NCBI GenBank assembly: GCA_026988115.1 | Contig: JALSLV010000099.1 | Span: 1-39,595, forward strand | Direction of reading: 5' to 3' | Origin: Lysobacterales bacterium | GTDB taxonomy: Bacteria > Pseudomonadota > Gammaproteobacteria > Xanthomonadales > Marinicellaceae | Length of the DNA: 39,595 nucleotides | Part shown: positions 1,386 to 16,684 of the stretch, piece after piece | How positions within the stretch are numbered: position 1 is the first letter of the stretch | Layout of the letters: every line of letters begins with the position of its first letter | Position numbers and translations under genes: made by a program | The notes under the pieces: generated by a model | Told to the model about the DNA's origin: nothing | What the model saw: only the letters and a program-made list of their open reading frames with translations | Databases searched by the model: none

Positions 1386-3713
1386 TCAATTTTCAAAACC
1401 ATTTTCAAAAATCAAATCATTGATGTCTGTGAATATATAGGCAGAGCCAGAATTAAGTCCACGGTCGTTTATTCCTTGAGCACCGATTAAGATGCGATCG
1501 TCAAAAATACTAACAGAGTTGCCAAAATAAGCTTCAAATTGAGGGTCAGGCGAGCGAATAATTTCAGTCCCAAAGTGAACACTAGACCAATTTTCACCAT
1601 TATAATGATACAAATAAGCTGAACCAGTACCAAAATTTTTATTTTTGACACCAACTAAAGCTCGATTACCAGATAAGCTCACGGACCCACCAAAAAAATT
1701 GCCTGTTTGAGCAGTATCAGAAGCTGTTAATTTTTTAGATTCTGACCAAAAACTACCATTAAAATCAAATATATAGGCAACTCCAGACATAATATGAAAG
1801 GCATCTTTATATGGAGCTCCAATTAATATTCTATTACCGGATAAGCTTACAGAATTTCCAAAATGATCACCAGACTCACCATCATCTGCGCTTAGTTTTG
1901 TGGTTTGACTCCAGCTATTCCCATCAAAATCATAGACATAAGCAGCACCATAATCACTGCCATTTTCATCATAATATGCCCCAATCAAAGCCCTGTTGTC
2001 CGATAAACTTACCGAATTTCCAAATAGATCGATAGCCTCGCCATCATCTGCGGTTAGTTTTGTGATTTGATTCCAACTATTCCCATCAAAATCAAAGACA
2101 TAAGCAGCACCAGAACTAACGCCATTGTCATCGTCTCCAAGTGCCCCAATCAAAGCCCGATTGCCGGATAAACTTACCGAAGCTCCAAAGAGATCGTCAG
2201 CCTCACCATCATTTGCGCTTAGTTTTGTGGTTAGATTCCAGCTAGTCCCATCAAAATCAAAGACATAAGCAGTACCAGATTGAGAACCGTTGCTATTGTC
2301 ACTAGGTGTCCCAATCAAAGCCCGATCATTAGATAAGCTGACTGATAAACCAAATCGTTGCCTCGTTGAGAAAGTGCCAGATTCCGCAATTAGTTTTTGT
2401 TTTTGACTCCAGCTACTCCCATTTTTATCAAACACATAAACCGATCCGGAGGCATCTCCATTGGAGTCATCAAAGTGAGCACCAATTACTAACCTGTCAT
2501 TAGTTAAACCAGCTGCAAAACCAAATTGATCTTGTAGGCTAGCATCACTTGCAGTGAGTTTTTGACTTTGACTCCATATGTTACCATTGAAATTGAAGAC
2601 ATAGGCTGCACCTTTATTTGTATCAGTAACTGCTGTGATTAATGCGCGGTTACCCATTAAACTCACGGAGTTGCCAAACTTAGCATTGGCTTGACCATCT
2701 GTTGCTAGGATTTTCTGTGATTGTGTCCAAGTGTTATTGTTAAGGTTAAAGACATACGCAGCACCCGAATTACCTCCGTTAGTATTTTCACCTGTTGCCC
2801 CTATGAGAGCAGTATTGCTAGATAAGCTTACAGAGCTTCCAAATTGATGGTTAGAACCAGCATTAGTAGCTGTCAATTTTTGACTTTCCAACCAATCAGT
2901 TCCATCAAAATCAAAAATGTAGGCAGAACCAGATCCATTGGCATTATCGTCATTATTACTGTTGCCAATCAAAGCACGATTTCCAAATAAACTAACCGAT
3001 ACGCCAAAATTATCCGCATCAACACCATCCGATGCTAGCAATCTATCCGTTTGTGTCCAAGAATTATTGTTAAACTCAAAGATATAAGCAGCACCTGTTG
3101 TTGCACTAATGCTTTCGCCTGCTTTATCAGAGCCAATCAAGGCTCGATTTCCTGATAGACTTAATGATCCTCCAAATTTATAACCAGGCTGAGCATCATC
3201 AGCAATTAGTTTTTGGGTGAACTGCCAACTCACCCCATCAAAGTTATAGACAAATACCACCCCAGCATCATTATCGGCATCATCATCTTTATTTGCCCCA
3301 ATTAACAATTGCGTCCCAGATAAGCTAACAGAAATTCCGAATTGGTCATCGTTGTTGCCATCAAAAGGAGTTAGTATTTGCGATTCAGTCCAAGTCGTTC
3401 CATCAAAATCAAAAACATAAACAGCACCATGAACTATAGTATTAAGACTATAATTTGGTGCGCCAACAACCATGCGATTGCCATCAACCGACACACTGTT
3501 CCCAAAATTGTGGTCTTCTCCGCCACCTGCTGAGGGCAATAACTTAACTTCTTGCACAGCAGTTTTTAAACTGGACCATTGTTTGTTATTCATATCAACG
3601 GGCTTATGCTGGTCAATATTATTTTGTACAGTATTGGCTCTGACAATGCTTGAAAGTGGCAATAATACCAATGTTAATACCAATGCTAATCCCCGTGTAA
3701 TAAGTTTGTTCAT
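1386..3713 (-). CDS. secreted FG-GAP repeat (beta-propeller) protein
   Basis: A 775-residue exported protein. It has an N-terminal signal peptide (about residues 1-26, ending SIVRA) followed by thirteen repeats of about 53-56 residues, each reading roughly 'FGxSVSLSGNRALIGA...GAAYVFDFDGxxWxxxxKLxA'. These are FG-GAP/integrin-alpha-like blades; Asp/Asn-rich loops (DDDNG, DDDADND) could bind calcium. The chain ends in 'DLIFENGFEN', the C-terminal tail shared with beta-helix proteins in this window. Start ATG 3713 has a strong AGGAG site 8 bases upstream. A triple 11-bp operator with a TAATAT -10 lies upstream (3738-3797). Thirteen blades could make two propellers, or one with extra blades; this is not decidable by eye. 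Likely an adhesin or surface-exposed protein; substrate unknown. Confidence 0.85.
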   Translation of the reverse strand: MNKLITRGLALVLTLVLLPLSSIVRANTVQNNIDQHKPVDMNNKQWSSLKTAVQEVKLLPSAGGGEDHNFGNSVSVDGNRMVVGAPNYSLNTIVHGAVYVFDFDGTTWTESQILTPFDGNNDDQFGISVSLSGTQLLIGANKDDDADNDAGVVFVYNFDGVSWQFTQKLIADDAQPGYKFGGSLSLSGNRALIGSDKAGESISATTGAAYIFEFNNNSWTQTDRLLASDGVDADNFGVSVSLFGNRALIGNSNNDDNANGSGSAYIFDFDGTDWLESQKLTATNAGSNHQFGSSVSLSSNTALIGATGENTNGGNSGAAYVFNLNNNTWTQSQKILATDGQANAKFGNSVSLMGNRALITAVTDTNKGAAYVFNFNGNIWSQSQKLTASDASLQDQFGFAAGLTNDRLVIGAHFDDSNGDASGSVYVFDKNGSSWSQKQKLIAESGTFSTRQRFGLSVSLSNDRALIGTPSDNSNGSQSGTAYVFDFDGTSWNLTTKLSANDGEADDLFGASVSLSGNRALIGALGDDDNGVSSGAAYVFDFDGNSWNQITKLTADDGEAIDLFGNSVSLSDNRALIGAYYDENGSDYGAAYVYDFDGNSWSQTTKLSADDGESGDHFGNSVSLSGNRILIGAPYKDAFHIMSGVAYIFDFNGSFWSESKKLTASDTAQTGNFFGGSVSLSGNRALVGVKNKNFGTGSAYLYHYNGENWSSVHFGTEIIRSPDPQFEAYFGNSVSIFDDRILIGAQGINDRGLNSGSAYIFTDINDLIFENGFEN
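1840..2345 (-). repeat. near-identical tandem repeats inside the FG-GAP gene (period about 162-165 bp)
   Basis: Successive copies around 1882, 2044 and 2209 share long stretches of DNA, including the segments encoding the 'YVFDFDGxSW' and 'FGxSVSLSxNRALIGA' strands. They differ at few bases, while the outer blades are much more diverged. The pattern indicates recent unequal-recombination expansion of the blades. Confidence 0.75.
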
Positions 3714-3737: not shown

Positions 3738-3797
3738 ATATTATTATTCATCACCTTTGTAAACATGAAGATTGTGTATTGATAGTGTGAAGATTGA
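3738..3797 (-). promoter_or_regulatory. operator D: three 11-bp direct repeats plus -10, FG-GAP gene promoter
   Basis: Reading the minus strand from 3797 to 3765: TCAATCTTCAC / ACTATCAATAC / ACAATCTTCAT. After 21 bases comes TAATAT (3743-3738), a near-perfect -10. Three consecutive repeats at one-helical-turn spacing over the -35 position suit an OmpR/PhoB-type activator. The same array occurs at four other promoters in the window. The FG-GAP start codon lies 24 bases past the -10. Confidence 0.65.
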
Positions 3798-3802
3798 TTT
3801 TT

Positions 3803-4552
3803 TTATGGCTTTTTATAAACATCTTTAAACAGCAAGATATCCACAACTCTTGATGAGGCGCCGTTATAAAACCCTGTTTCTTTAACAAAGTCCTTGGGAT
3901 TATTAAATGTCCCAAAGATGATATCAAATAACGGTAAGTCCGAATAATTGTATGCATGCACACCTTTTTGGTGATGGATGCTGTGGCTTTCGGGTCTTTG
4001 AATGAAATATCCAAGCCATTGTGGTGTTTTAACATTGGTGTGTTGAAAAATAGCTAAGAAGGTGGTGATATACAATACATTGGTGGTTGATTGTGGTGAT
4101 AGGCCAAGAAACAAAACCAAGCTTAAGCTGCCAATCATGGTAAAGCCAATCATGTCTAATGGGCTAAAATAATAAGCACCATAAGCATCAATTCTTTCAG
4201 CACTGTGGTGCATTTGGTGAAAGCCTAACCATAACCATTTGCTGTTGTGCATGGTGCGGTGCCAGATATAAATCAACAATTCAAAAACAAATATACCAAC
4301 AACACTGCCCATTATTTTCATGCTACTGATATTTATCAATTGAAATTGAATCAAGTATTTATCCCACAGTAGTGGTAAATAATTGGCCAAATAAAAATAC
4401 AGGCCAAAACTTATGAATGTTCTAAATTTCCAGCCTTTGACAGGAGGTAATTTTCTACCAGGAATTGCTGTCTCAATAAGTATCAAAGCTAAATAAATAG
4501 CAATAATAATTAATGAAACAGGGTCGATAAGTAATTCAATAGGGGTTGGCAT
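3803..4552 (-). CDS. sterol desaturase / fatty acid hydroxylase family membrane protein
   Basis: A 249-residue integral membrane protein of the fatty acid hydroxylase superfamily, which uses a di-iron centre held by histidine clusters to hydroxylate or desaturate lipids. The expected clusters are visible: HRTMH (H98, H102), HQMHH (H112, H115, H116), an extra H171, and HSIHH (H190, H193, H194) followed by HAYNYSDLPLFD, the usual end of the motif. Hydrophobic segments lie at about 10-30, 45-65, 80-97 and 133-165. Length is normal for short bacterial members. The start at 4552 has AAGAGA upstream. It follows the AOC-like gene on the same strand after 86 bp containing a hairpin, so the two may be co-transcribed. 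Substrate is unknown. Confidence 0.85.
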   Translation of the reverse strand: MPTPIELLIDPVSLIIIAIYLALILIETAIPGRKLPPVKGWKFRTFISFGLYFYLANYLPLLWDKYLIQFQLINISSMKIMGSVVGIFVFELLIYIWHRTMHNSKWLWLGFHQMHHSAERIDAYGAYYFSPLDMIGFTMIGSLSLVLFLGLSPQSTTNVLYITTFLAIFQHTNVKTPQWLGYFIQRPESHSIHHQKGVHAYNYSDLPLFDIIFGTFNNPKDFVKETGFYNGASSRVVDILLFKDVYKKP

Positions 4553-4586
4553 GTTGTTTCTCTTGGTGTTTTGTTTGTTGGGTAAT

Positions 4587-4621
4587 GTGCCTTAACAAAG
4601 AAACTTCTCCTTGTAAGGCAC
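4587..4621 (-). terminator. hairpin between AOC-like gene and desaturase gene
   Basis: GTGCCTTA pairs perfectly with TAAGGCAC, with an extra CAA/TTG pairing inside. It lies 18 bases after the AOC-like stop codon and 35 bases before the desaturase start. There is no T-run, so it may attenuate, process or stabilise RNA rather than fully terminate transcription. Confidence 0.4.
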
Positions 4622-4638
4622 AATTTAGTTATGCTTAT

Positions 4639-5280
4639 TTAACGTCTAAGACGAAGGACAACTCTTACATTTACACCAAATGATGAATTAAAACCCAGTA
4701 GTTTTTGAGTAGAAGTTCCTTTTGCACGACCAAACTTACCAGTCCCACCAGTGATAGCACGATCTATGCCAACATTAATATCTGCTAGCTCATAGCCTTC
4801 GGTGATTATTGTCTGTCTTCCATGTTTTTCTTTTAAGTCGAATATTTGCGTCGTAACAACCCAAGGGCCAGTAACAGTACTTGCACCTTCGCCGATATGC
4901 CATCCTCGACAAACCCACCTGCCTAATACCTTTTCAGGATAAGCAGGGCTTCCATCTTCGTTTACACCATTATGTGTTTCTAGAAAATTATAAGGATAAA
5001 GATAGCCCTGTGTAATAAACTCTCCACCATACGCAGGTAGACCATTCTCATCTACAGGTTCAGCATCAAAAGAAAAGCGTGAACCATTTTCTGCAATATC
5101 AAAGCGTTTAATTTTATTAAAATGAAATTCATTAATTGGTTTATCGCTTAATTGGTTTAATTCAGAATTAGTTAAACCTTCTTTTGCATGAACCTGACCT
5201 ATAATTATTGATGAAATGACAAACAATATAATTATTGCTACTTTACTTGCCTTTATTTTGTTTTTGTTGATATTTAACAT
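4639..5280 (-). CDS. exported protein resembling AOC/dirigent barrel family
   Basis: A 213-residue protein with a hydrophobic N-terminal signal (about residues 14-32, ending GQVHA). The C-terminal half contains 'ITGGTGKFGRAKG', which closely matches the GGTGxFxxARG signature of allene oxide cyclase-like/dirigent beta-barrels. It is followed by a final strand rich in beta-formers, as in that fold. The segment 'GWHIGEGASTVTGPWVVTTQIFDL' also fits an 'F/W-G-GxLxVxxxIxL' barrel strand. Bacterial AOC-like barrels are mostly uncharacterised, so no reaction is assigned. Start ATG 5280 is preceded by AAAGGAAA. Its promoter carries a weaker copy of the shared triple operator (5310-5369), placing it with the secreted-protein regulon. 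An unrelated exported lipocalin-like barrel cannot be excluded. Confidence 0.6.
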   Translation of the reverse strand: MLNINKNKIKASKVAIIILFVISSIIIGQVHAKEGLTNSELNQLSDKPINEFHFNKIKRFDIAENGSRFSFDAEPVDENGLPAYGGEFITQGYLYPYNFLETHNGVNEDGSPAYPEKVLGRWVCRGWHIGEGASTVTGPWVVTTQIFDLKEKHGRQTIITEGYELADINVGIDRAITGGTGKFGRAKGTSTQKLLGFNSSFGVNVRVVLRLRR

Positions 5281-5309
5281 TGTATTTCCTTTCGTTTAAA
5301 TGAGCTTCC

Positions 5310-5369
5310 ATGATAGATGTAGAGTTAAATTCATAAATGAAGATAAGGTATTTATTCCATGATAATTAT
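5310..5369 (-). promoter_or_regulatory. operator E: three degenerate 11-bp repeats plus -10, AOC-like gene promoter
   Basis: Minus strand 5369 to 5337: ATAATTATCAT / GGAATAAATAC / CTTATCTTCAT. After 21 bases comes TATCAT (5315-5310) as the -10. Repeats match the consensus at about 8-9 of 11 positions each. Individually they are weak; the three-fold phase and the exact 21-base spacing support the call. Confidence 0.45.
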
Positions 5370-5623
5370 GTACTTTTTCGATGAAGAACAATAGTTGCCG
5401 AAATCTGAAAGATTATCCTGACACATAGATAAAGAGCGATAATATCTATTAAAATTAGTGAATTTAATCACCTCATATAAGCATAGCTGGCTTCTCGGGA
5501 ATCAATTTTTAAAAAAAAACAGGTCTGAAATCACACTTTTAACCTGAAAATTAAGTAAACTGTTGGTGGCAGTCTGTTTTCACTGGCTTATAAATGATAC
5601 AAATTAGGGGATTTGTTCTAGAC
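5370..5623. other. intergenic region between divergent genes, upstream of the regulator pair
   Basis: The gene-free stretch runs from 5281 to 5623; beyond operator E I see no gene. It is AT-rich, with an A-run at 5512-5520. I find no convincing copy of the 11-bp operator directed at the regulators, although GGAATCAATTT near 5498 resembles a single half-site. The promoter of the regulator genes is not identifiable with confidence. Confidence 0.4.
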
Positions 5624-7990
5624 ATGCGTTATAAATTTAACACTATTGAAGTTGACACAGAAAAATTCAGCCTGTTGACAAATGGCAAAGAAACAGCTGT
5701 GGAACCTCAGGTGTTTAATTTAATCGTCTTTCTAATTCACAATAAAGACAGAATTATATCCCGTGATGAAATACTAGACAATATTTGGAAAGGCCGTGTT
5801 GTTTCAGACACCTCCATCAATAACCACATTAAATCGGCCCGCAAAGCCTTGGGTGATGATGGTCACAAACAACAGGTGATAAAAACCACTCATTCTCGTG
5901 GTTATCAGTTTATTGCTGAACTTGAAGGTGATTCGAATAGTACCGAAACCAAAACAAGCACTTTTCAGCCCAAGAAATTCCGTTCAAATATTCTTGTATT
6001 ATCGGCTTTTATAGTATTGACTTTATTTGCTATATATTATTATCAGAAAACACAACTTCGTCAATCTGTTCAAAAAATTGCTAACTATCAGGACATGGCT
6101 TATGCGACCTTTGTTGCTCAAGCTAAAAGAAGGAATGAACTGGTAGACATGATTGAGAAGCGAATTGGTGAAAAGCGTGAGATGCAATTTGAAAAATATT
6201 TTTCTTATTATTTCAAAAAATTAAACAGCCAAGAAAAATTTGTGTTTTATCAAATTAGGGCGATGACAGAGAACGGCTTGTACCAAAACAACCTAAGAAT
6301 TCTTGATGAACTAAATGGCCATCCGAAAATATATAAACTCATCAAAGGAAGCAAAGAATTACAACAGCATTTAACCTTCTGGATAAATAAATACCACAGT
6401 GTTTTTACCCAAAGAGAGGATATGTGTCTATTGTATGTCGGGGTTGAAGATGATGTGCCGTATCCAAGTGAAGTCAATAAAAATGTTAAAGATTGGTTGC
6501 TCAGTCATTCTGCAAATCCAACCCATGAAATTGATAACAACAGTCAAGCAACCACTCCTATTACGGAAATAAAAACAATAGATGATGATAAAAATATTTC
6601 AACTGGCACTCCGAAATCACTAGCAGTTTTGCCCTTAATTAATTTAAGCCCAGAAAAAGAAACTGATTTTTTAGGATTTGCCTTAACCGATCAAATTATT
6701 GGAAAATTAATTTATAATCGAAATATTCAAGCCAAACCCTCTGCACTTGTAAGGAAATACAATAAAGGTGTTATCGATACCGTGGCGATTGGAAAAGAAT
6801 TAAATGTCGAGTATATTTTAAGTGGCAATTATCTAAAACAAGATGACTTATTGAGACTGAACTTTGAATTGGTTGAAGTTAAAAGCAAAGAATTAATCTG
6901 GAGAGAATCTCAAGAATTACCCTATGAAAGCCTCTTTAAGTTACAAGACAGTATTGCCAATACATTGTCCCAAAAAATTGATATGGGGCTATCATTTGAA
7001 GAGTATGAAAACAACAAGAATCGCCAACCAATTGATGTCATTGCTTATGATTATTATCTACGAAGCATTGCTTCTCCCATTACCAAAGATGGCAATAAAC
7101 TGGCACTTGAATTATTAGGTAAAGCCATTATCATTGAGCCTAATTCGGCTCCAATACATACCCAGTTAGCCCTTAGACTACGCTATGGAACAGTAGATGA
7201 AGATGGATTAAATAAAGCCAGAGCGATACAACACTTGATTAAAGCACTAGAAATAAACTCCAGATATTTCGCAGCTCTGCGGCATTTATCAAGGATTTAC
7301 TATGACACAGGTGAATTCTTAAAGTCTTATAACTTGGTTAAGAAAATGCTGATTATAAACCCAAAATACAGTACTGCCTATTACACTCTGGGGAAAATTT
7401 ACCGTAAATCAGGCATGATTGAACAATCAATAACAATGTTTAAAAAAGCCTTGTCTTTAGAAGGAAACATCGACACTCGCAATCAAATTGGTGCCAGCCT
7501 TTTTAGCAATTCACAATACCAACAAGCCAGAAAGTACTTTGACCCAGAAACAAAAAATGCACCGTCATTAGCTTGGCAAGGAAGTATTGCTATTAGGCTT
7601 GGAGAAAACACAAAAGCCTATAAATTATATCAAAAAATTGCTGTCTTGTATCCTGAGAGTTATTGGGGAAAAGATGCTGAAATTTTTATGGCTATTATTA
7701 AGGGTGATAGCAAAAATGGTTTACAACAATTAGCAATACAGGAAAAACGTTATGTGGATGTCTCTGAACCCACTTACTTTATTGCCAGTCAATATGCAGC
7801 TTTTGGCGATAGAAACAATGCATTAAGGATGTATGAAAAAGCAGTCAAGGATGGGTACTACAATTTATCCATGATGCGTTCAGATTCTTTCTTTGATTTC
7901 CTACGTAAAGATGCCAAATACATTGAGATATTTAACTTGGCTAAACAAAAACATTTAGCTTTTAAACAAGCCATAGCCGATGATTTATAA
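5624..7990 (+). CDS. membrane-anchored winged-helix regulator with sensor insert and TPRs (CadC/ToxR-like)
   Basis: I place the start at ATG 5624, not the in-frame ATG 5594: TTAGGGG lies just upstream, and the product MRYKFNTIEVD then aligns with the start of its downstream paralogue. This gives 788 residues. Domains: an OmpR/PhoB-type winged helix at 1-100 (recognition region VVSDTSINNHIKSARKALG); a single transmembrane helix at about 121-140; an unfamiliar helical insert at about 145-300 absent from the paralogue; a 'SLAVLPLINLSPEKETDFLGFALTDQI' domain at about 331-450, typical of CadC-like/adenylate-cyclase-associated proteins; then TPR repeats to the end. Topology predicts a cytoplasmic DNA-binding head and a periplasmic sensor. 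It overlaps the next gene by 11 bases, so the two are probably translationally coupled. The proposed target is the triple 11-bp operator found at five nearby promoters. Confidence 0.85.
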   Translation: MRYKFNTIEVDTEKFSLLTNGKETAVEPQVFNLIVFLIHNKDRIISRDEILDNIWKGRVVSDTSINNHIKSARKALGDDGHKQQVIKTTHSRGYQFIAELEGDSNSTETKTSTFQPKKFRSNILVLSAFIVLTLFAIYYYQKTQLRQSVQKIANYQDMAYATFVAQAKRRNELVDMIEKRIGEKREMQFEKYFSYYFKKLNSQEKFVFYQIRAMTENGLYQNNLRILDELNGHPKIYKLIKGSKELQQHLTFWINKYHSVFTQREDMCLLYVGVEDDVPYPSEVNKNVKDWLLSHSANPTHEIDNNSQATTPITEIKTIDDDKNISTGTPKSLAVLPLINLSPEKETDFLGFALTDQIIGKLIYNRNIQAKPSALVRKYNKGVIDTVAIGKELNVEYILSGNYLKQDDLLRLNFELVEVKSKELIWRESQELPYESLFKLQDSIANTLSQKIDMGLSFEEYENNKNRQPIDVIAYDYYLRSIASPITKDGNKLALELLGKAIIIEPNSAPIHTQLALRLRYGTVDEDGLNKARAIQHLIKALEINSRYFAALRHLSRIYYDTGEFLKSYNLVKKMLIINPKYSTAYYTLGKIYRKSGMIEQSITMFKKALSLEGNIDTRNQIGASLFSNSQYQQARKYFDPETKNAPSLAWQGSIAIRLGENTKAYKLYQKIAVLYPESYWGKDAEIFMAIIKGDSKNGLQQLAIQEKRYVDVSEPTYFIASQYAAFGDRNNALRMYEKAVKDGYYNLSMMRSDSFFDFLRKDAKYIEIFNLAKQKHLAFKQAIADDL

Positions 7991-9833
7991 ATTTAATAAC
8001 AGTGAAGTTGATTCTAAGAATTATCGTTTGCTGGATAATGGCAAAGAAATTTCGGTAGAACCACAGGTGTTTAACCTCATCGTTTTTTTGTTAGAAAACA
8101 AAGACAATGTGGTTAGCCGTGATGAAATATTAGATAAACTTTGGCAAGGGCGTGTGGTTTCCGATACCTCGATTAATAACCACATTAAATCAGCCCGAAA
8201 AGTTCTGGGTGATGATGGTATCAAACAAGCAGTTATCAAAACCATACATTCACGTGGTTATCAGTTTATTGCTAAAATCAATACCAAACGTATTCAAGAA
8301 AATAGCAATGATCCAGCCGTAGATAACCCAAGTAGAAGTCTTTTGAAATTTATTGCATTCGGTGTTTTTATAGCCATTTTTTCACTGTTTCTATGGCAGA
8401 ACAATACCAGTAAAACACCTGATATACTCAAACTGATTGATACAGAACATGTAAGCGTACTTGAATCGATTGCAGTTTTGCCTTTTGCTAATAGCAAACC
8501 AGATGTTGATACAGATTTTTTAGGGTTTGCTTTGGCCAATCAAATTATTGGCGATCTAACAAATCTGGATAAATTCACTATTCTTCCGGCTGGTTCAATC
8601 AGAAAGTATAGAAACCAAACAATAGACCCTATTTATATCGGTGGGGAGCTTGTTGTTGATTATGTTCTTAGCGGAAATTATTTAAAAGAGAATAACGAAA
8701 TTCGGTTAAATGTTGAACTGATTGAGGTAGCCAATAAGCAATTGATTTGGCGTGAGTCCATACATGTGGATTATTCCAACACTTTTGCTTTGCAAGATAG
8801 GGTTGCACAGAAGGTTGCCAAGGGTTTGAAAGTTGGCTTTAGACAAAACTCCTCAACCGATAAATTCCAAGACATTCCCAATAGTGCCTTAGCCTATGAA
8901 TATTACTTACGTGGTATCTCTTACCCTTTTTCAAACCAAGGGCATAAATTGGCTGTCGAAATGTTGGGCAAATCTATTCAACTAGATGCCAATTATGCAC
9001 CAGCATATGCACACTTGGGCAATCACAGAAGATTGCTAGAACAACATGGACGAGTGATTGTTTCTGGTTTAGAAAGTGCTGAATGGTATTATAACAAAGC
9101 ACTGGAGCTCAATCCTGAATTGATAGAAGCCATGAGCAATTTGGTTTCATTATATACAGAAACCAATCGGATAGAAAAAGCTGTGCTGGTCACTCGAAAA
9201 ATGCTAAAAATAAATCCCAATAACGCACAAGCTCATTTTTCACTGGGTTATATCTATCGCTACGCAGGTATGCTTGATGAGGCCATTAAAGAAATGGAGA
9301 TCGCATTAACTATTAGTCCTAATAATAGCCGATTCAGGTCTATAGTTGCTACTTATGTGAGTGCGGGAAGGTACAAGCAGGCCTTGTCTAAAGTTTATTT
9401 GGACGAGGGCGATTATGGTATAGGTTATAGTGGGATTATTGCCTTTAACCAAGAAAGCAACACATTGGCTTTAGAGCGATTCAAGCAAGTACTTGCGATT
9501 GACCCCAATGGTATTTGGGGATTAATTGCGCAAGTTTATATTGCAGTTATTAACAACGATAAGTCAGCAGGTTTAATGGCACTAAATAAAATGGTAAAGA
9601 CCAATATTGTTGATGCGGAAAATTATTTTTATTTCTCTAATTTTTATGCACTGTTAGGTGAAGAAAAATCGTGTATTGAAATGTTAACTAAAGCAGTCAA
9701 TACGGGTTATTTCAACTATCCGCATATTTCTCAAAACCAATCATTTAATTTTATCCAAAGTAATCCACAATTCATTGCCATTTTAGAGAAAGCCAAAAGA
9801 CGACATGATGCTTTTAGAGAACAATTTTTCTAA
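7980..9833 (+). CDS. paralogous membrane-anchored winged-helix/TPR regulator
   Basis: A 617-residue paralogue of the preceding gene. The N-terminal winged helix (1-100) is nearly identical in the wing and recognition helix (VVSDTSINNHIKSARKVLGDDG...HSRGYQFIA). A transmembrane helix spans about 121-139. The 'SIAVLPFANSKPDVDTDFLGFALANQIIGDL' domain follows directly at about 163, then TPR repeats (for example around 'NAQAHFSLGYIYRYAGMLDEAIKEMEIAL'). It lacks the roughly 155-residue insert of the first copy. The ATG at 7980 overlaps the upstream stop by 11 bases; there is no clear ribosome site, which fits coupled translation. Near-identical reading heads with different periplasmic parts suggest two inputs acting on one operator, or a heterodimer; this is inference. 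Confidence 0.85.
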   Translation: MIYKFNNSEVDSKNYRLLDNGKEISVEPQVFNLIVFLLENKDNVVSRDEILDKLWQGRVVSDTSINNHIKSARKVLGDDGIKQAVIKTIHSRGYQFIAKINTKRIQENSNDPAVDNPSRSLLKFIAFGVFIAIFSLFLWQNNTSKTPDILKLIDTEHVSVLESIAVLPFANSKPDVDTDFLGFALANQIIGDLTNLDKFTILPAGSIRKYRNQTIDPIYIGGELVVDYVLSGNYLKENNEIRLNVELIEVANKQLIWRESIHVDYSNTFALQDRVAQKVAKGLKVGFRQNSSTDKFQDIPNSALAYEYYLRGISYPFSNQGHKLAVEMLGKSIQLDANYAPAYAHLGNHRRLLEQHGRVIVSGLESAEWYYNKALELNPELIEAMSNLVSLYTETNRIEKAVLVTRKMLKINPNNAQAHFSLGYIYRYAGMLDEAIKEMEIALTISPNNSRFRSIVATYVSAGRYKQALSKVYLDEGDYGIGYSGIIAFNQESNTLALERFKQVLAIDPNGIWGLIAQVYIAVINNDKSAGLMALNKMVKTNIVDAENYFYFSNFYALLGEEKSCIEMLTKAVNTGYFNYPHISQNQSFNFIQSNPQFIAILEKAKRRHDAFREQFF

Positions 9834-9839
9834 AAACAG

Positions 9840-9899
9840 ACAATCAACACACAATCAATACATAATCTTCATGTTCTAATATTTTCTCCAAACTATACT
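9840..9899 (+). promoter_or_regulatory. operator A: three 11-bp direct repeats plus -10, methyltransferase promoter
   Basis: 9840-9872 reads ACAATCAACAC / ACAATCAATAC / ATAATCTTCAT, the cleanest array in the window. Twenty-one bases later is TATACT (9894-9899). There is no good -35 hexamer at the canonical spacing, as expected for an activator-dependent promoter. It begins only 7 bases after the stop of the second regulator gene. Confidence 0.7.
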
Positions 9900-9931
9900 G
9901 TGCCTACTTAAAACACAATCAGGAAAACAGT

Positions 9932-10987
9932 ATGAGCATTAACGAAGATAAATTAAACGCATTACTTGGACAAGTAGTGGTAGAAATGGGAGCTGCTGCC
10001 AACGGGCCATTAATTACAATTGGTGACAAACTGGGTTTGTATAAAACCTTGGCAGAGTCAAAAGTGTTAACCGCCAATGAATTAGCTGATAAAACTGGTA
10101 CAGCCCTAAGGTACGTACAAGAATGGTTGGCTGCACAAGCGGCATCAGGTTATGTCGAATACGATGCACAAAACCATCAGTTTTATATGACTCCAGAACA
10201 AGTTGCGGTATTTGGTGATAACAAAAGCCCTGTATTTATGACGGGTGCTTTCTATGCAATTACTTCTTTGTATCATGATGAACCTAAGATGCTAAAAGCT
10301 TTTAAAACAGGAGAAGGTATTTCTTGGGGAGATCATCATACATGTTTGTTCTGCGGAACTGAAAAATTCTTCAGCCCATCTTATGAAGGCAATTTAATCT
10401 CCAGTTGGATTCCTGCATTAAAGGGTGTCATTGAAAAGTTAAAGAAAGGAGCGAAAGTAGCGGATATTGGTTGCGGTCATGCAGCATCAACAATAGTGAT
10501 GGCAAAAGCTTTTCCAAATTCACATTTTATAGGAATAGACTTTCACTCAGATTCAATCGCACAAGCCATTGTTCGTGCAAAAGAAGCGGATATTGAGAAT
10601 ATCGAATTTAAAGTCGCTACTGCAAAAGATTATGCAGATAAAGATTTTGATTTTATCGCATTTTTTGATTGTTTGCACGATATGGGCGACCCAGTTGGCG
10701 CTTGTGCTCATGCCAAACAAGCCTTAAAAGCCGATGGATCAATGATGATAGTTGAACCTTTTGCCAATGATTCAATAGCAGAAAACCTCAATCCTGTGGG
10801 TCGCGCTTTTTATGCATTCTCCACACAATTGTGTATTCCTTGTTCACTCAATCAAGAAGTAGGATTGTCATTGGGTGCACAAGCTGGTTTAAAAAGATTA
10901 ACCGAAACCATAAAATCAGGTGGCTTTAGTTATTGTGAAAAAGCCACAGAAACTCCATTTAATTTGATTTTGGAAGTTAAACCCTAA
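9932..10987 (+). CDS. SAM-dependent methyltransferase with N-terminal winged helix (Rv2258c-like)
   Basis: A 351-residue cytoplasmic enzyme. Residues about 25-95 form a winged-helix dimerisation domain of the small-molecule methyltransferase type (LGLYKTLAESKVLTANELADKTGTALRYVQEW). The class I Rossmann domain begins at about 175 with motif I 'VADIGCGHAAST' and the acidic motif II 'FIGIDFHSD' that binds the SAM ribose; 'FDFIAFFDCLHDMGDP' is motif IV. An unusual 'HHTCLFCGTEKFF' (about 135-147) could bind a metal or be a substrate-loop feature. Overall it resembles the Mycobacterium Rv2258c group; the substrate is unknown. AGGAAAA precedes ATG 9932. Its promoter carries operator A. The last 79 bp of the gene recur at 14741 as a relict. 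Confidence 0.85.
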   Translation: MSINEDKLNALLGQVVVEMGAAANGPLITIGDKLGLYKTLAESKVLTANELADKTGTALRYVQEWLAAQAASGYVEYDAQNHQFYMTPEQVAVFGDNKSPVFMTGAFYAITSLYHDEPKMLKAFKTGEGISWGDHHTCLFCGTEKFFSPSYEGNLISSWIPALKGVIEKLKKGAKVADIGCGHAASTIVMAKAFPNSHFIGIDFHSDSIAQAIVRAKEADIENIEFKVATAKDYADKDFDFIAFFDCLHDMGDPVGACAHAKQALKADGSMMIVEPFANDSIAENLNPVGRAFYAFSTQLCIPCSLNQEVGLSLGAQAGLKRLTETIKSGGFSYCEKATETPFNLILEVKP

Positions 10988-11001
10988 ATGTTGTTTAACA
11001 G

Positions 11002-11061
11002 GTAATCAATACATAAAAAACAGACAATCTTCATGTTTGAATCGTGTTGAATGCTTATATT
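11002..11061 (+). promoter_or_regulatory. operator B: 11-bp repeats plus -10, beta-helix gene promoter
   Basis: 11002-11034 reads GTAATCAATAC / ATAAAAAACAG / ACAATCTTCAT; the middle unit is degenerate. TATATT (11056-11061) follows after 21 bases, the same spacing as operator A. It starts 15 bases after the methyltransferase stop codon, so the beta-helix gene has its own promoter. Confidence 0.6.
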
Positions 11062-11094
11062 GTAGACAGTTAAATTCAATAAAAGGATAAAAGT

Positions 11095-14000
11095 ATGAAT
11101 AAAATATTGATAGCATTACTATTTTTAGTTTCACAGTACGGATTAGCGAAATCGTTATGGGGCTTGAATTCCGATACAGAAAGTAGATTACTTTCTGCTT
11201 TAGAATTGTCGCATGCCCATAAGGTCTCAAAGAGCAATAAGATGGGCGGTTTTGTTACTGTTGGGGATGACAGTAATTGTGATTTTCGTGTTGGAGCCAA
11301 CAAAATTCAAAATGCCATTGATAGTGGAGCTACTGAAATTAGAATTGCATCGAATTCTATTTATGAAGAAAATGTCGTGATTAACAATCCCAATGTGAGT
11401 TTGATTTTAAGGGGAGGTTTTTCAGATTGTTCACAAGCCGATTTAGGCAATCAATCTGACTTGGTTGATGATTGGGCTATAGTTGGCCGCTTTCCTGGGA
11501 GTTTTGGTGCAGTTTTTTTGATTACTGGATTGCCACAGGGTAATACTATAGTATTTGAAAATATTAAAATAATCAGCAGCGATCTTTTAACAGCATCAGG
11601 TTCAAGTATTAAAGTTGACGGTAGTGATTCGGATTTAATCTTAGATAAGGTGTGGATAACGCAAGGTGCTGAAATTTCTGGAGGAGGTCTACAGATTTCT
11701 AACAGTAATAGCACTACAGTATTGAAAAACACTGAGATATTCAATAATGCTGCTGCGAATGGCGGTGGCCTCTATTGTAACAATACCAGTGGTGTATTTA
11801 AAAATACAACGATTGTTTTAGATGAAACAAGCAGTATTCATGATAACAGTGTTAGATTTGATGGTGGTGGAGCCTATATAGGAAATGATTGTTTACTTAC
11901 GTCGTTCTCTGGTTCGGTTATCCTTTCTAGCAACAGCGGAATTGTTAATAATACGGCCAATAGAGATGGTGGTGGGCTTTATGTAATTGATGATGGAAAG
12001 GTACTCATATATGGAGGGAAGTTATGTGATGTGAATAATGAGTGCTTTGGAAATGAAGATGCTCCTGCCTCGGTTTCTGGAAATAACGCTGACTCAGATT
12101 CATCGGGTTTTGATAGTGGAGGTGGGATATATGCTTCAGGGTCAGGAACTGATATCACAATTATTGCAGGATATCTATCAAAAAACACCAATAACAATGG
12201 AATTGGTGGCGGTTTAGCTCTATTTGATAATGCACAATTAACGATTAATCACCCACGTAAAAACAATTTAGCATTAAGTTGCTGGAATTCCTATAAATGT
12301 AATATGTTCGAAGGGAATTCAGCCATCAGTGGAGGGGCGATTTATAGCAGTAGTTTTGCAACAATTGAACATGTGTTTTTTGAAGACAATGAAGCCGAAA
12401 ATGGTGCTGTTATTACTTCTACAATTTCTTCTACAACAGAAATACAAAGTTCAGTGATTGATAACAATGGCAGTGGTTTATTTTTTAATAGTAACAGTAT
12501 TTTTGAAGTAATGGATAACGCGAATTTAAACATTAAGTATTCTACAATTGCAGACAATATTTATAATGGAGTGGTCTTTGATGTGGTTGGATCTTTCAGT
12601 AATTTTAACATTCAATCATCCATTGTGCATGATAGTTCTGGCTTGAACATCATCAATTCTTTCACAGGAACAGTTTCCAGTAGTTGTGTAATGGGACACG
12701 AAGTTGCCTCACTAACTGGTACTTCAAATAGTATTAATGACCCAATGTTCATAGATAGATTGAATCGAAATTATCATTTAAATAGTACCAATTCCCCTGC
12801 AATAGATTATTGTGATGCTATTCCATTGATTGGGAACAATATTCCTATGCCAAGTAAAAAAGACATAGACTTTCAATCACATGGTTTCGACAATATTAAT
12901 CTGAGTAATTTATTAGGACCATATGATTTAGGTGCAGATGAAGCTTATCCTCAAAATTTCGTGACAGTTGGCATGGGTGCAAGTTGTGATTTTAATACCA
13001 ATAGCCAAAGTATCCAAGATGCCATCAATACAGGAGTACAAGAAATAAGGTTGGCCAAAACGGGGAGCTATACCCAGCCTTTTACTATCGATAACATCAA
13101 CCTTAAACTAATCGGAGGTTTTGAAACATGCGATGATGCATTGAATAACATACAAACGTTTACTTCAACCTCATTATTGGGAACAATTGGGCCTGTAGAG
13201 CCAATAATTATTATTAAAGGCAGTTCTTTAAGAAATACTGTTATCTTAGAAAAATTAATTTTATCAGGAGCAGACAATAGTGCTATTACAGCAATTAGTA
13301 CCAATACAGAGATTATATTGAATAACGTACTAATAAAGCAGAATAATTTGGCTATAGGTTTTTCAGGTGGGGCAATATTTACCAGCAATAGCAATGTAGA
13401 TTTTACTTTACACAACTCTAGAATTTTACAAAATACTGCGACAAATGGAGGTGGTATTTACTGTAGTGGAGAGGAGGCTTCAATTAAACTAACAGGGTTG
13501 AGTGGGATTGTCAATAATTCAGCAGATGGAAAAGGAGGGGGCATACACATTACCAATGGTTGTCAATTGACTGTCTATTCCGGTACGTTAGACCCCGTTT
13601 CGTTGACTTTTACTGGTATTCAAGGAAATAATGCAAAACAAGAAGGTGGCGGTATCTATGCTGATCTTGGTGCTAAGGTTGTACTTTATGGGCATGAGTT
13701 TTGTAGTGCATCTGGTGTTTGTGTTGGTAATAATACCAATCCAGTTAATGTCAACAACAATAGGAGTGATTCAGATTCATCTGGAGGTGAAAGAGGTGGT
13801 GGTATTTATTTAACAGGCCTTGGTACATCCGTAGAAATATATGCAGGATTAATCCAGGGCAATCTTAGCCCCAATGGCGCAGGAGTTTACGTCAATGACC
13901 AAGCCAGTTTAACTGTAGCCAGATTGTTTAAAGATTGTTGGGATCCCGTAAGGTGTAACTTATTTCAAAATAATCGGGCTTTTACCACAGGAGGAGCCAT

Positions 14001-14625
14001 TCAGAATGACCAAGGAATAGTCAACATTTCATCTACTTATTTTGAAGGAAACAAAGGCATTGCAGGTTCTGCACTTTATGCTTTTGGTGCACTTTCTAGA
14101 AACAGAATAGAAGGCAGTGTATTTAATCACAATAAACATGTATCCAGTACCAATAATGCTTATGTAATCAGAGCAGCAGTTTCAGCAAAAGTAGAAATTG
14201 TTCACAGTACATTTGCAGATAATTCTGTTGAAAATACAGCGGTATTTGGGATTGCTTCAAACTCAGAACTCAAGCTCTTTTCAAGCATCATAAATGATCC
14301 TACAGGTGTTGTACTTGATACCAATCCTGGAACAACCATAATCAATTGTGTTATGGCACATGAAACCAGTTCATTCTCGGGCAGCAATATATTTTTAAAT
14401 GACCCCGATTTCATTGATAGAGTCAATTTAGATTATCATTTGAGTGTCAATTCACCAGCCATTGATGTTTGTGACAACAGCTTTGCAAATGTTCAATTTA
14501 GAGACATAGATTTCGAATCACGCGGTGTAGACAATCCAAATGCCCCAAATAATATTGGAACCTATGATATTGGAGCCGATGAAACATCTGGTAGTGATGT
14601 ATTGTTTGCCAATGGGTTTGAATAA
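11095..14625 (+). CDS. large secreted beta-helix protein, internally duplicated, NGFE tail
   Basis: A 1,176-residue exported protein with a signal peptide at 1-18 (ending YGLA). Two homologous halves (about 50-625 and 635-1176) each begin 'FVTVG...CDF...IQxAI..G..EIR.A', run through parallel beta-helix coils with 'GGGIY/GGGLY' turns, a 'CWDxxxCNxF' or 'CWNSYKCNMF' motif and an 'FxxN.A..GGAI' coil, and close with 'IDxCD...KDIDFxSxGxDN...GxYDxGADE'. This closing block matches the choice-of-anchor Q type of C-terminal domain. The chain ends 'DVLFANGFE'. AAGGA precedes ATG 11095. It belongs to the operator-bearing group. Probably surface-displayed or released; adhesin or polysaccharide-interacting roles are possible, but no catalytic residues are evident. 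Confidence 0.85.
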   Translation: MNKILIALLFLVSQYGLAKSLWGLNSDTESRLLSALELSHAHKVSKSNKMGGFVTVGDDSNCDFRVGANKIQNAIDSGATEIRIASNSIYEENVVINNPNVSLILRGGFSDCSQADLGNQSDLVDDWAIVGRFPGSFGAVFLITGLPQGNTIVFENIKIISSDLLTASGSSIKVDGSDSDLILDKVWITQGAEISGGGLQISNSNSTTVLKNTEIFNNAAANGGGLYCNNTSGVFKNTTIVLDETSSIHDNSVRFDGGGAYIGNDCLLTSFSGSVILSSNSGIVNNTANRDGGGLYVIDDGKVLIYGGKLCDVNNECFGNEDAPASVSGNNADSDSSGFDSGGGIYASGSGTDITIIAGYLSKNTNNNGIGGGLALFDNAQLTINHPRKNNLALSCWNSYKCNMFEGNSAISGGAIYSSSFATIEHVFFEDNEAENGAVITSTISSTTEIQSSVIDNNGSGLFFNSNSIFEVMDNANLNIKYSTIADNIYNGVVFDVVGSFSNFNIQSSIVHDSSGLNIINSFTGTVSSSCVMGHEVASLTGTSNSINDPMFIDRLNRNYHLNSTNSPAIDYCDAIPLIGNNIPMPSKKDIDFQSHGFDNINLSNLLGPYDLGADEAYPQNFVTVGMGASCDFNTNSQSIQDAINTGVQEIRLAKTGSYTQPFTIDNINLKLIGGFETCDDALNNIQTFTSTSLLGTIGPVEPIIIIKGSSLRNTVILEKLILSGADNSAITAISTNTEIILNNVLIKQNNLAIGFSGGAIFTSNSNVDFTLHNSRILQNTATNGGGIYCSGEEASIKLTGLSGIVNNSADGKGGGIHITNGCQLTVYSGTLDPVSLTFTGIQGNNAKQEGGGIYADLGAKVVLYGHEFCSASGVCVGNNTNPVNVNNNRSDSDSSGGERGGGIYLTGLGTSVEIYAGLIQGNLSPNGAGVYVNDQASLTVARLFKDCWDPVRCNLFQNNRAFTTGGAIQNDQGIVNISSTYFEGNKGIAGSALYAFGALSRNRIEGSVFNHNKHVSSTNNAYVIRAAVSAKVEIVHSTFADNSVENTAVFGIASNSELKLFSSIINDPTGVVLDTNPGTTIINCVMAHETSSFSGSNIFLNDPDFIDRVNLDYHLSVNSPAIDVCDNSFANVQFRDIDFESRGVDNPNAPNNIGTYDIGADETSGSDVLFANGFE

Positions 14626-14740
14626 TTAGTGCCTGACCGAGAAAGGAATCGTAGCGAGGGAAAGTCTGGTTTGAAGCAAAATATTTCATTATTTGAGGAG
14701 AATAGCTCGCTATTTACGCGTTGCAGCCTTTATCAAGGGA
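14626..14740. repeat. intergenic segment with dispersed AATAGC-TC-GCTATT palindrome (copy 1)
   Basis: The palindrome AATAGCTCGCTATT with trailing TACG lies at about 14701-14718, and an identical 18-base core recurs at about 32461-32478. The surrounding sequence looks like a short non-coding repeat and not a gene. It sits where the body of a duplicated methyltransferase gene should be, immediately before that gene's surviving 3' end at 14741. Confidence 0.55.
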
Positions 14741-14819
14741 CATAAAATCAGGTGGCTTTAGTTATTGTGAAAAAGCCACAGAAACACCGTTTAATTTAAT
14801 TATAGAAGTTAAACATTAA
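14741..14819 (+). pseudogene. relict 3' end of a second methyltransferase gene
   Basis: This 79-bp stretch aligns without gaps to the end of the methyltransferase gene (10909-10987), with about 7 differences. It decodes in the same frame to ...KSGGFSYCEKATETPFNLIIEVKH followed by the stop codon. Most differences are silent (ACT/ACA, CCA/CCG, TTG/TTA), as expected if the copy was once a translated, selected paralogue. Everything upstream is gone. Together with the operator that follows, it shows that a methyltransferase + promoter + beta-helix block was duplicated in tandem. Confidence 0.85.
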
Positions 14820-14832
14820 AACACAAAAATAG

Positions 14833-14892
14833 AAAACCATTATTAAATCAACAGCTAATCTTCATGTTTGAAATAATTGATTTACATACTGT
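14833..14892 (+). promoter_or_regulatory. operator C: 11-bp repeats plus -10, promoter of second beta-helix gene
   Basis: 14833-14865 reads AAAACCATTAT / TAAATCAACAG / CTAATCTTCAT. After 21 bases lies TACTGT (14887-14892); CATACT two bases earlier is an alternative -10. The ATG at 14864 falls inside the last repeat, which argues that it is not the translation start. Confidence 0.55.
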
Positions 14893-14920: not shown

Positions 14921-16684
14921 ATGAAACAACTAACATTTTTTATACTGATTTTAATAAATAATATTTCAGCATCTACCTCAAATCAAATGAATGATGTCTC
15001 CCATTACAAATTAAACAAACATATAATGTTAAAAGATCAACTTAATAATCTTCAGCTAGACAAGCAAGTAAATGGCATAGGTAGATATTATGTTGGCGCT
15101 GATGGTGCTTGTGATTTTAGCACTATTCAAGCAGCAATTAATGCCACAATTGGTGACATGAATGCACCTGAGGTACTGATTGCTTCAAACAAAACTTATG
15201 AAGAAAATTTAGCCATACTTGATATTAATATGTTCATGGATGGCAGTTATTCTACTTGTTTGGATGCCAGAAATAATATTCATAATGGAGGTAGATCTAT
15301 AATTAAAGGTCCTTCTGGTTCTGCGTTGCCGATTATTAGAGTGCAAGGTAATACAGGCAGTTCTTTCCGTTACAATGTAACCATTAAAAATATTCAACTT
15401 CAAGATAGTAGTAAAGGAGGCGTTCGTGTACTGAGTTCATCTGCCGGTATATCACTGGAAAATGTATTTTTTTTCCAATTAGGCAATAATGCTTTAAGAG
15501 TGCAAGGAGTCACCTCTGCATCAACAAGTGTTACAGTTAAAGATTCTATATTCTTACTAAATTCAGCAATAAATGGTGGTGCAATTAGATGTGCCGGGTT
15601 GGGTAACATAATTGTGTTGGATAACTCAGGACTATCTACGAACTCAGCCACAGGAAATGGTGGTGGAGTGTATCTAGAACAAGCTTGTGACTTATCCGCA
15701 TTTGACAGTGATTTTGCCAATAACACAACTGATGGTAATGGCGGGGCCATTTATGCTGAATTTGGTTCAGATATTATCTTAGAACGGAGTTTTTTCAATG
15801 GAAATACAGCCGTTAGTAATGGTGGGGCAATTTACGCAATAGATGGGGCAACTACTATTAATGCAGAGGCAGTTAAATTTAGAAACAACCGAAGCACAAA
15901 TGGTGCAGGTGGAGCAGTTGCTGTACATAATGGTGCCAGTTTTACTATAAAGCGAACTGTAACTGAATGTGTTAATGACGATAGGTGTAATTTTTTTGAT
16001 GGTAATGAAGCACAAAATCTTGCAGGTGCAATATACAATGATAATAGCATCATCGATGTATCATCCACTTATTTTGAAGAAAATCGTGCAGCTTTTGGCA
16101 CAGCTATTTACGTGATTGGTGCTAACTCAACAACCAAAATAGAAGGCAGTATCTTCAATCATAATGGCAACAACGGTGCAAATGGGTTTACAGATTTCTA
16201 TGTAGTACGGACAATCCAACAATCAGATATCGATATAAGCTATAGTACTTTCGCAGACAACAATGCTGAACGTGCAACTTTTGGCGTCTCATTTAATTCG
16301 CAGTTAAATATTTCTGCATCTATTATTTATGATATTAGCAGTGGAGATGTTGTCGATAGAGAGGAAACTGGTGTATTTAACAAACACTGTATTATGGTGA
16401 ATGCACGAACAGGCTTTGAAGATGATGGGGATTATTTTATAATAAACAACCCTAAATTCATTGACCCTGACAATAGGAATTATCATCTTAATATAGTCCT
16501 TTCTCCAGCTATAGATATGTGTAATAACGGTCAAGCTCCAGCTGTTTTTAAAGATATTGATTTCCAAGACCGAGGTTTTGATGATGTATTAATAAACCCA
16601 AGTAATATTTTTGGTACAGGACCTTTTGACATGGGTGCCGATGAAAGCCAAGGTAATCTTATATTTAAAGATAGTTTTGAATAG
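14921..16684 (+). CDS. secreted beta-helix protein with NGFE-like tail
   Basis: I choose ATG 14921: AGAGGAAA sits just upstream and the product then begins with a proper signal peptide (MKQLTFFILILINNISAS). The alternative ATG 14864 lies within the operator and would put 19 odd residues before the signal. This gives 587 residues. The mature part repeats the family layout: 'YYVGADGACDFSTIQAAIN', beta-helix coils with GGGVY/GGAIY turns, 'CVNDDRCNFF' in place of CWDxxxCNxF, an 'FEENRA..GTAIY' coil, and the closing 'DMCNN...FKDIDFQDRGFDD...GPFDMGADE'. The tail is 'NLIFKDSFE', a variant of NGFE. It is most similar in layout to the second half of the 11095 gene, consistent with the duplication marked by the upstream relict. 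Confidence 0.85.
   Translation: MKQLTFFILILINNISASTSNQMNDVSHYKLNKHIMLKDQLNNLQLDKQVNGIGRYYVGADGACDFSTIQAAINATIGDMNAPEVLIASNKTYEENLAILDINMFMDGSYSTCLDARNNIHNGGRSIIKGPSGSALPIIRVQGNTGSSFRYNVTIKNIQLQDSSKGGVRVLSSSAGISLENVFFFQLGNNALRVQGVTSASTSVTVKDSIFLLNSAINGGAIRCAGLGNIIVLDNSGLSTNSATGNGGGVYLEQACDLSAFDSDFANNTTDGNGGAIYAEFGSDIILERSFFNGNTAVSNGGAIYAIDGATTINAEAVKFRNNRSTNGAGGAVAVHNGASFTIKRTVTECVNDDRCNFFDGNEAQNLAGAIYNDNSIIDVSSTYFEENRAAFGTAIYVIGANSTTKIEGSIFNHNGNNGANGFTDFYVVRTIQQSDIDISYSTFADNNAERATFGVSFNSQLNISASIIYDISSGDVVDREETGVFNKHCIMVNARTGFEDDGDYFIINNPKFIDPDNRNYHLNIVLSPAIDMCNNGQAPAVFKDIDFQDRGFDDVLINPSNIFGTGPFDMGADESQGNLIFKDSFE

Follow-up and report, generated by a model that had tools for sequence, protein, structure and literature searches.

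Triplet arrays and regulators at the locus

The DNA analysed here, called the window in the following, is a stretch of 39,595 nucleotides from a Lysobacterales bacterium of the family Marinicellaceae (assembly GCA_026988115.1, contig JALSLV010000099.1, positions 1 to 39,595). It contains two adjacent genes for winged-helix regulators with tetratricopeptide repeats (TPR), here named regulator 1 and regulator 2, together with several genes for exported-looking proteins, and five of its promoter regions carry an array of three consecutive 11-bp direct repeats (Table 1). Judged from the sequence, we consider it highly probable that these triplets are operators of a family of CadC-type one-component membrane regulators.

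Table 1. Arrays, regulator genes and candidate target genes in the window
Feature	Position	Strand	Description
Array A	9840–9872	+	Three 11-bp units; -10-like TATACT at 9894–9899; 5' of the methyltransferase gene, 6 bases past the stop codon of regulator 2
Array B	11002–11034	+	-10-like TATATT at 11056–11061; 5' of beta-helix-like exported protein 1
Array C	14833–14865	+	-10-like TACTGT at 14887–14892; 5' of beta-helix-like protein 2 (probable start 14921)
Array D	3765–3797	-	-10-like TAATAT at 3743–3738; 5' of the FG-GAP repeat protein
Array E	5337–5369	-	-10-like TATCAT at 5315–5310; 5' of the AOC/dirigent-like gene, divergent from regulator 1
Regulator 1	5624–7990	+	PF00486 winged helix and TPR; aligned relatives place the start at 5624, the reading frame is also open from 5594
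Regulator 2	7980–9833	+	Winged helix 1–100, membrane helix 122–141, alpha/beta domain 162–282, TPR 303–616 (AlphaFold)
Methyltransferase	9932–10987	+	Rv2258c-type winged helix and S-adenosylmethionine (SAM) methyltransferase; target of A
Exported-looking protein 1	11095–14625	+	Target of B, 1176 aa; without a Pfam match; called beta-helix from its similarity to the protein 2 group and by eye
Exported-looking beta-helix-type protein 2	14921–16684	+	Target of C; 587 aa when read from 14921; has Chlam_PMP repeats
Exported-looking FG-GAP repeat protein	1386–3713	-	Target of D
Exported-looking dirigent/AOC-like protein	4639–5280	-	Target of E; its Pfam Dirigent match (E 8e-5) falls short of the curated cut-off
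Fatty-acid-hydroxylase family membrane protein	3803–4552	-	Behind E, without an array of its own in the window

A preliminary description of this DNA had named the five arrays and a distance of 21 bp between each array and a -10-like hexamer; all five are present and the distance is exact in every one of them. Within the 33-bp arrays of the window self-identity peaks at a lag of 11 (0.54), the remaining lags from 3 to 19 giving 0.16–0.40. With leave-one-out matrices every site is among the five highest-scoring positions of the window, both strands included (four of the competing positions being training sites), and scores 20.9–38.4 bits, compared with a maximum of 14.4–16.9 bits in the reversed sequence.

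The sequence AYAATCTTCAT, which had been given for the last unit, holds for the promoter-proximal unit, where we find NTAATCTTCAT followed by GTTT; in a larger set of 29 sites (see below) units 1 and 2 are nearer to NTAATCATTAY. The consensus of this set reads AATC.(T)TA for the first two units and AATCTTCATGTTT for unit 3, and since unit 3 differs from the other two the array is polar. The repeats had also been placed over the -35 position. Read from the sequence, this needs correction: if the -35 hexamer is set 17 bp ahead of the -10 hexamer, the array adjoins it and does not cover it.

An earlier count of the gap to the -10 hexamer had used sites from a model that itself contained the -10 hexamer and was therefore redone with a matrix lacking it. 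Of 32 non-overlapping matches, 11 then have TAnnnT at a distance of 21 bp and 6 have it at 20 bp, and the mean for other gaps is 0.74. A start codon follows 84–96 bp after the first base of the array in 21 of 29 strong sites, usually at about 92 bp. Sites of the C105/C115 type (named after two other contigs of the same genome) have a longer leader before the gene. At G000:C115 (L074:4250–4400), G000:C105 (L096) and L076:13290–13360 the leaders are long and resemble one another in a stretch behind the array (around TTCCCTTGAGAAGTTAAGATAGTTCA).

Both regulators have the OmpR/PhoB-type winged helix that had been proposed for them, as PF00486 (Trans_reg_C) matches with 60.7 and 63.3 bits at a curated cut-off of 26.2, and the Pfam matches of both include no receiver domain. 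Their recognition regions are indeed nearly identical: 75 of the 100 N-terminal residues agree and SDTSINNHIKSARK is common to both; over residues 148–614 of regulator 2 the identity is 36%. TPR are matched by Pfam in both proteins, and regulator 2, the sole regulator modelled (AlphaFold, input of 13 sequences), has a membrane helix in the model, in keeping with the membrane-anchored TPR regulators described before. This model (mean pLDDT 82.8, pTM 0.67) consists of winged helix, membrane helix, alpha/beta domain and a TPR superhelix. In a Foldseek search with it the top six matches are TPR proteins and the periplasmic domain of CadC follows at rank 7 (3ly9, E 5e-8, 295 alignment columns for a chain of 322 residues); 3ly9, 3ly8 and 3ly7 stand at ranks 7, 11 and 18 with a TM score of 0.62 by target. 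The DNA-binding domains of CadC and ToxR are among the solved chains matched by sequence search. By prediction, regulator 2 thus has the layout of CadC with winged helix, single membrane helix and a periplasmic part of alpha/beta domain and helical repeats.

Regulator 1 carries an extra segment after its hydrophobic stretch, which is common to relatives in the genomes G010 and G007. The regulator of G007 at L078:3359–5638 has an extra segment resembling that of regulator 1 and shares 67% identity with regulator 2 in its C-terminal part; judging by these resemblances, it looks like a fusion of, or a recombination between, the two adjacent regulators.

Distribution of the array in the genome

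In the whole of the own genome (3.51 Mb) a pattern search gave 21 matches at up to 3 mismatches (5 in the reversed control) and 4 at up to 1 mismatch. By this a sixth site was found on contig C109. It likewise has a gap of 21 bp, precedes the gene of a Vps62-like protein that looks exported, and is divergent from a further CadC-like regulator. The model R1, made from the five window arrays and this site, gives the five arrays E ≤ 4.3e-13 in the window, where the next match has E 0.96 (the five being training sites). In the whole genome R1 adds two sites outside its training set, namely C109:29188 (E 5.7e-6), which precedes a TPR protein that looks exported, and C105:6167 (E 9.1e-5), where a relative of the beta-helix proteins follows; thereafter E is at least 0.025. 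A second model, R2, was trained on the 29 sites, eight from the own genome and 21 from relatives. It finds nine sites with E ≤ 1.3e-4, eight of which belong to its training set, and the next match has E 0.31. The ninth site (C115:4205) is outside both training sets, lies 51 bp upstream of the paralogous regulator C115:2331–4154, faces away from it and points to a beta-helix relative.

The nine sites are distributed over four contigs, and eight of them are no more than about 5 kb away from regulator 2 or from one of its four best matches, which were taken from the own-genome matches listed and sorted by E-value. The five site-linked regulators are the two in the window, two on C109 and one on C115. 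The genome has 21 PF00486 domains, and the other 16 share no contig with any site. Thus the arrays do not occur at background frequency genome-wide: the scans with both models end in a clear gap, that with R2 after nine sites. The preliminary view of a self-contained regulon of two regulators has to be given up, as there are nine promoters on four contigs, five related regulators and a recurrence in other genomes; the count is nine promoters and probably five regulators instead of five and two.

Several candidates were dropped. The pattern matches other than A–E and the sixth site, including C53:6954 (2 mismatches), were not found by R1 or R2, with the exception of C118:28188, to which R1 gives an E of 4.8. 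The C81 match (E 0.025) was counted as noise, as were all weaker ones of this genome. Between array and regulator on C109 a reading frame for a 165-aa relative of the exported TPR protein is present (G000:C109:29350–29847, equal to L073:12351–12848); it may have arisen by duplication and truncation, and a second, degenerate array possibly lies upstream of it.

Regulator loci in related genomes

We also approached the arrays from the regulator. A profile search of genome contigs with an alignment of 20 proteins gave 173 relatives, the best 80 of which correspond to 77 distinct loci. These include Paraglaciecola, Colwellia, Shewanella and Thalassotalea, relatives of Marinicella and records named as other proteobacteria. 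A matrix of 37 bp was built on the six sites of the own genome; with it, 34 matches of at least 14 bits were found in these loci (32 when overlapping registers are merged) and none in the reversed control. Nineteen of the 34 (17 loci, 15 assemblies) lie at most 300 bp upstream of the regulator and on the opposite strand, where 0.41 would be expected; in the same 300 bp no match of at least 14 bits has the strand of the regulator. Among the other 15 are sites just behind the regulator and before a methyltransferase gene (L133, L134 and L135, weak in L136) and sites up to several kb off (L133, L134, L137, L146, L150 and L154).

In a test that requires no matrix, three tandem units with lags of 7–16 were sought in the 200 bp upstream of the regulators and compared with dinucleotide shuffles. 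This was possible for 75 of the 77 loci, L159 and L162 having too little upstream sequence. A lag of 11 is significant at p<0.05 in 37 of the 75 loci, which represent 33 of 65 assemblies, and at p<0.01 in 19 of the loci; each other lag is significant in 0–6 loci. Upstream regions of other genes of the same loci served as controls (253 of 254 regions scored) and have lag 11 in 16 of 253 regions, compared with 24 for lag 12 and 20 for lag 15. In loci with a GC content of at least 0.5, lag 11 is found in 20 of 35 and any other lag in at most 4. These loci carry other letters, for example repeated units similar to AAATCTCCA or AGATCTTCA (L169, L193 and L190).

The recurrence was also assessed genome by genome. 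R1 has sites with E < 1e-3 in eight of 60 other genomes (G002, G004, G007, G010, G016, G020, G027 and G028), which belong without exception to two genera of the window's family; in the 28 genomes from other families no site reaches E < 1e-3, the best being found in G056 (E 0.006). Leaving out the own genome, a site is present in 6 of 10 genomes with a close regulator, compared with 2 of 50 genomes without one (Fisher 1e-4); within the family the figures are 6 of 10 and 2 of 22 (0.005) and for R2 8 of 10 and 2 of 22. The same array is found beside related regulators of other genomes, mostly just upstream and facing away or else just behind. In sum, the arrays are located beside or divergent from CadC-type regulators in many genomes.

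Outside the window's family, the locus L135 of Paraglaciecola sp. MB-3u-78 has regulator (61%), array and methyltransferase (86%) together, which suggests from sequence similarity a transfer of the cassette.

Target genes

Eight of the nine own-genome products look exported, the eighth (on C115) being judged by eye. On a crude hydropathy scale seven of the nine reach values of 1.77–3.39 and the methyltransferase 1.49. The proposal of a regulon for surface proteins is thus retained for most targets and fails for the methyltransferase, which is probably cytosolic. An ATG of the open reading frame (ORF) called at 14864 falls inside array C; going by the spacing in the other promoters, protein 2 probably starts at 14921. 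The fatty-acid-hydroxylase gene is possibly in one operon with the gene behind E. In eight relatives' loci such a gene stands directly behind an array, and in G010 it has its own array. An inverted repeat (GTGCCTTA ... TAAGGCAC), noticed by eye, lies between the fatty-acid-hydroxylase and AOC-like genes at 4553–4638.

Over 49 sites, 45 target ORFs were picked mechanically as the longest ORF near the site, 4 sites yielding none; several targets in far relatives are doubtful. Grouped by similarity, they comprise beta-helix proteins (9), fatty-acid hydroxylases (8), methyltransferases (6) and then pairs and singles. The methyltransferase is 83–93% identical in six relatives' loci including Paraglaciecola and 76% in L136 (L134 and L077 are the same contig), and the regulators beside these methyltransferases are 42–76% identical to regulator 2. 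The copy behind the array at L078:5941–6993 (G007) has one in-frame stop at codon 74. A short C-terminal tail (LFxNGFE, IFKDSFE, IFENGFEN or IFSNGFE) is present in the window proteins encoded at 11095–14625, 14921–16684, 1386–3713 and 27019–28800, and a loose pattern of it in 9 of the 45 targets. This shared tail may be a sorting signal; NCBIfam names none for it in the three window targets scanned.

Proposed mechanism and alternatives

The 11-bp repeats are present and linked to PF00486 regulators, and head-to-tail binding of the proteins to these repeats is predicted. We suggest that two or three membrane-anchored monomers would place their winged helices in tandem on one face of the DNA just upstream of the -35 position. 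The bound regulators would recruit RNA polymerase once the periplasmic alpha/beta-TPR part receives a signal from the envelope, and the output would be exported beta-helix, FG-GAP and other secreted proteins together with the methyltransferase and the fatty-acid-hydroxylase-type enzyme. The regulators probably activate from the arrays. We infer this step, with direct contact to the polymerase, because the three units lie on one helix face upstream of -35, the gap is fixed and the -35 hexamer is poor. As the paralogues have similar recognition helices, an overlapping control of the nine promoters by them is likely.

Some observations speak against assigning the arrays to these regulators. The site on C105 has no PF00486 regulator found on its contig. 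The 77 loci are the best of the 173 relatives and partly non-independent, and at a cut-off of 8 bits the matches rise to 75 with 12 in the reversed control. Thirty-eight of the 75 regulators have no significant lag-11 triplet in the upstream 200 bp, and the five own-genome members of the clade themselves give p 0.11–0.99 in this test. Among the 38 are the close relatives at L133, L134, L135 and L136, where the array is found behind the regulator instead; in the own genome, regulators 1 and 2 and the second regulator on C109 have their array beyond the 200 bp examined, and the other two have it within this stretch but in a form that is degenerate by this measure. In the comparison of genomes, the limit for a close regulator (tblastn E < 1e-60) was chosen after the table had been seen, and R2 was searched in family genomes several of which had contributed to its training. 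A close regulator is present without an R1 site in G005, G006, G008 and G032 and without an R2 site in G005 and G032 (assemblies 74 and 81% complete). Sites without a close regulator occur in G004 and G028 (R1) or G009 and G028 (R2).

Chance similarity was rejected in view of the leave-one-out scores, the genome-wide scans and the control regions. A different factor, for example a response regulator of the OmpR/PhoB type, might own the arrays and the regulators might be near them by chance; any of the 21 PF00486 proteins could bind 11-bp repeats. We regard this as improbable, since the 77 loci were picked for the regulator only and nevertheless contain 19 matches in the divergent 300 bp where 0.41 are expected, eight of the nine own sites are neighbours of regulator 2 or of one of the four proteins that match it best, the other 16 PF00486 genes are on different contigs, and the co-occurrence across genomes tracks the regulator. 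Still further down we rank the idea that the arrays are merely AT-rich, helically phased DNA (curved or similar to UP elements) or the result of a recent promoter duplication. The window has 63% A+T and some of the promoters belong to related beta-helix genes, yet the control upstream regions show no excess of lag 11, which there falls below lags 12 and 15, the signal persists at a GC content of 0.5 or more, the target families are unrelated and the spacers are unconserved.

Of the alternatives the most serious, albeit in our opinion an unlikely one, accepts the arrays as real operators and has the regulators repress, blocking the polymerase by binding beside the -35 position, or mainly regulate themselves. 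It fits that the array abuts the -35 position and that it stands between regulator and divergent gene in many loci, where it could act on the regulator's own promoter. However, a fixed gap of 21 bp without a clear -35 hexamer suggests activator-dependent promoters, and the matches of at least 14 bits within 300 bp upstream face away from the regulator 19 times and never towards it.

Tentatively, and with slightly less than even confidence, we propose a general grammar in which each CadC-type TPR regulator, or small clade of them, stands beside a private outward-facing triplet of 11-bp head-to-tail units, which would be bound by three winged helices tethered to the membrane or by a dimer and a single one. 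The own genome has eight long CadC-like regulators outside the clade, and four of them (on C120, C8, C63 and C108) have a different 11-bp triplet in the 200 bp before the gene at p<0.01; the C108 triplet, the sole one tested, occurs nowhere else in the own genome at up to 3 mismatches. Against this grammar stands the lack of significance of the five clade members of the own genome in the lag test. Were this grammar true, operator and regulon could be read from the sequence alone. Membrane regulators of the CadC/ToxR type are common and few of their operators are known. An array beside members of such a large family offers a way to assign regulons from sequence, and with its defined units and spacing the triplet is a clean test substrate. 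It would also bring a group of exported beta-helix and FG-GAP proteins under a single family of envelope sensors, along with a methyltransferase and an enzyme of the fatty-acid-hydroxylase type.

Relation to known systems

HilA is a cytosolic protein, and the regulators described here have a predicted membrane helix. The HilA/EilA/YgeH family, which likewise has a winged helix followed by TPR, is the best NCBIfam match of both regulators by E-value. They are not HilA or EilA proper, as PRK12370 scores 78 and 84 bits, far below the equivalog cut-off of 589.

PhoB binds direct repeats with a period of 11, TGTCA-N6-TGTCA (PMC11358694). Winged helix (PF00486) and period agree with our system. The pho box has two units, whereas the arrays have three polar units with the core AATC and are assigned to a membrane-bound one-component protein. 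The gap of 21 bp to the -10 hexamer is about one turn longer than in pho boxes. Membership in a PhoB regulon was rejected, as each unit has AATC and not the TGTCA-N6-TGTCA core.

In Vibrio cholerae TcpP recognizes TGTAA-N6-TGTAA, again with a period of 11, and ToxR TNAAA-N5-TNAAA (PMC4829181, PMC8517210). These are membrane-anchored winged-helix proteins reading AT-rich direct repeats as proposed here; the core sequence differs and so does the number of units, which is three in our arrays. The periplasmic parts of ToxR and TcpP are unlike the alpha/beta and TPR part of our regulators. TcpP proper was rejected, since its TGTAA-N6-TGTAA core is absent.

A further likeness is to CadC, with the same predicted layout of winged helix, membrane helix and alpha/beta plus helical-repeat domain. 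Nevertheless, both regulators are CadC-like only, because the equivalog PRK10153 scores 53 and 70 bits at a cut-off of 400. The site of Escherichia coli CadC is reported to consist of two TTAxxxxT motifs arranged head-to-head (PMC5430869), which differs from the three head-to-tail units found here; an operator of the cadBA type is not present. The binding mode of membrane-tethered regulators is unsettled, the CadC site being published as head-to-head and that of TcpP as head-to-tail. In the open-access literature searched, which did not extend to subscription journals or to the RegPrecise database itself, no description of this operator was found. Compared with the published sites named here, the polar three-unit array on CadC-type regulators and its breadth are new, whereas the binding mode itself is of a kind known from PhoB and TcpP.

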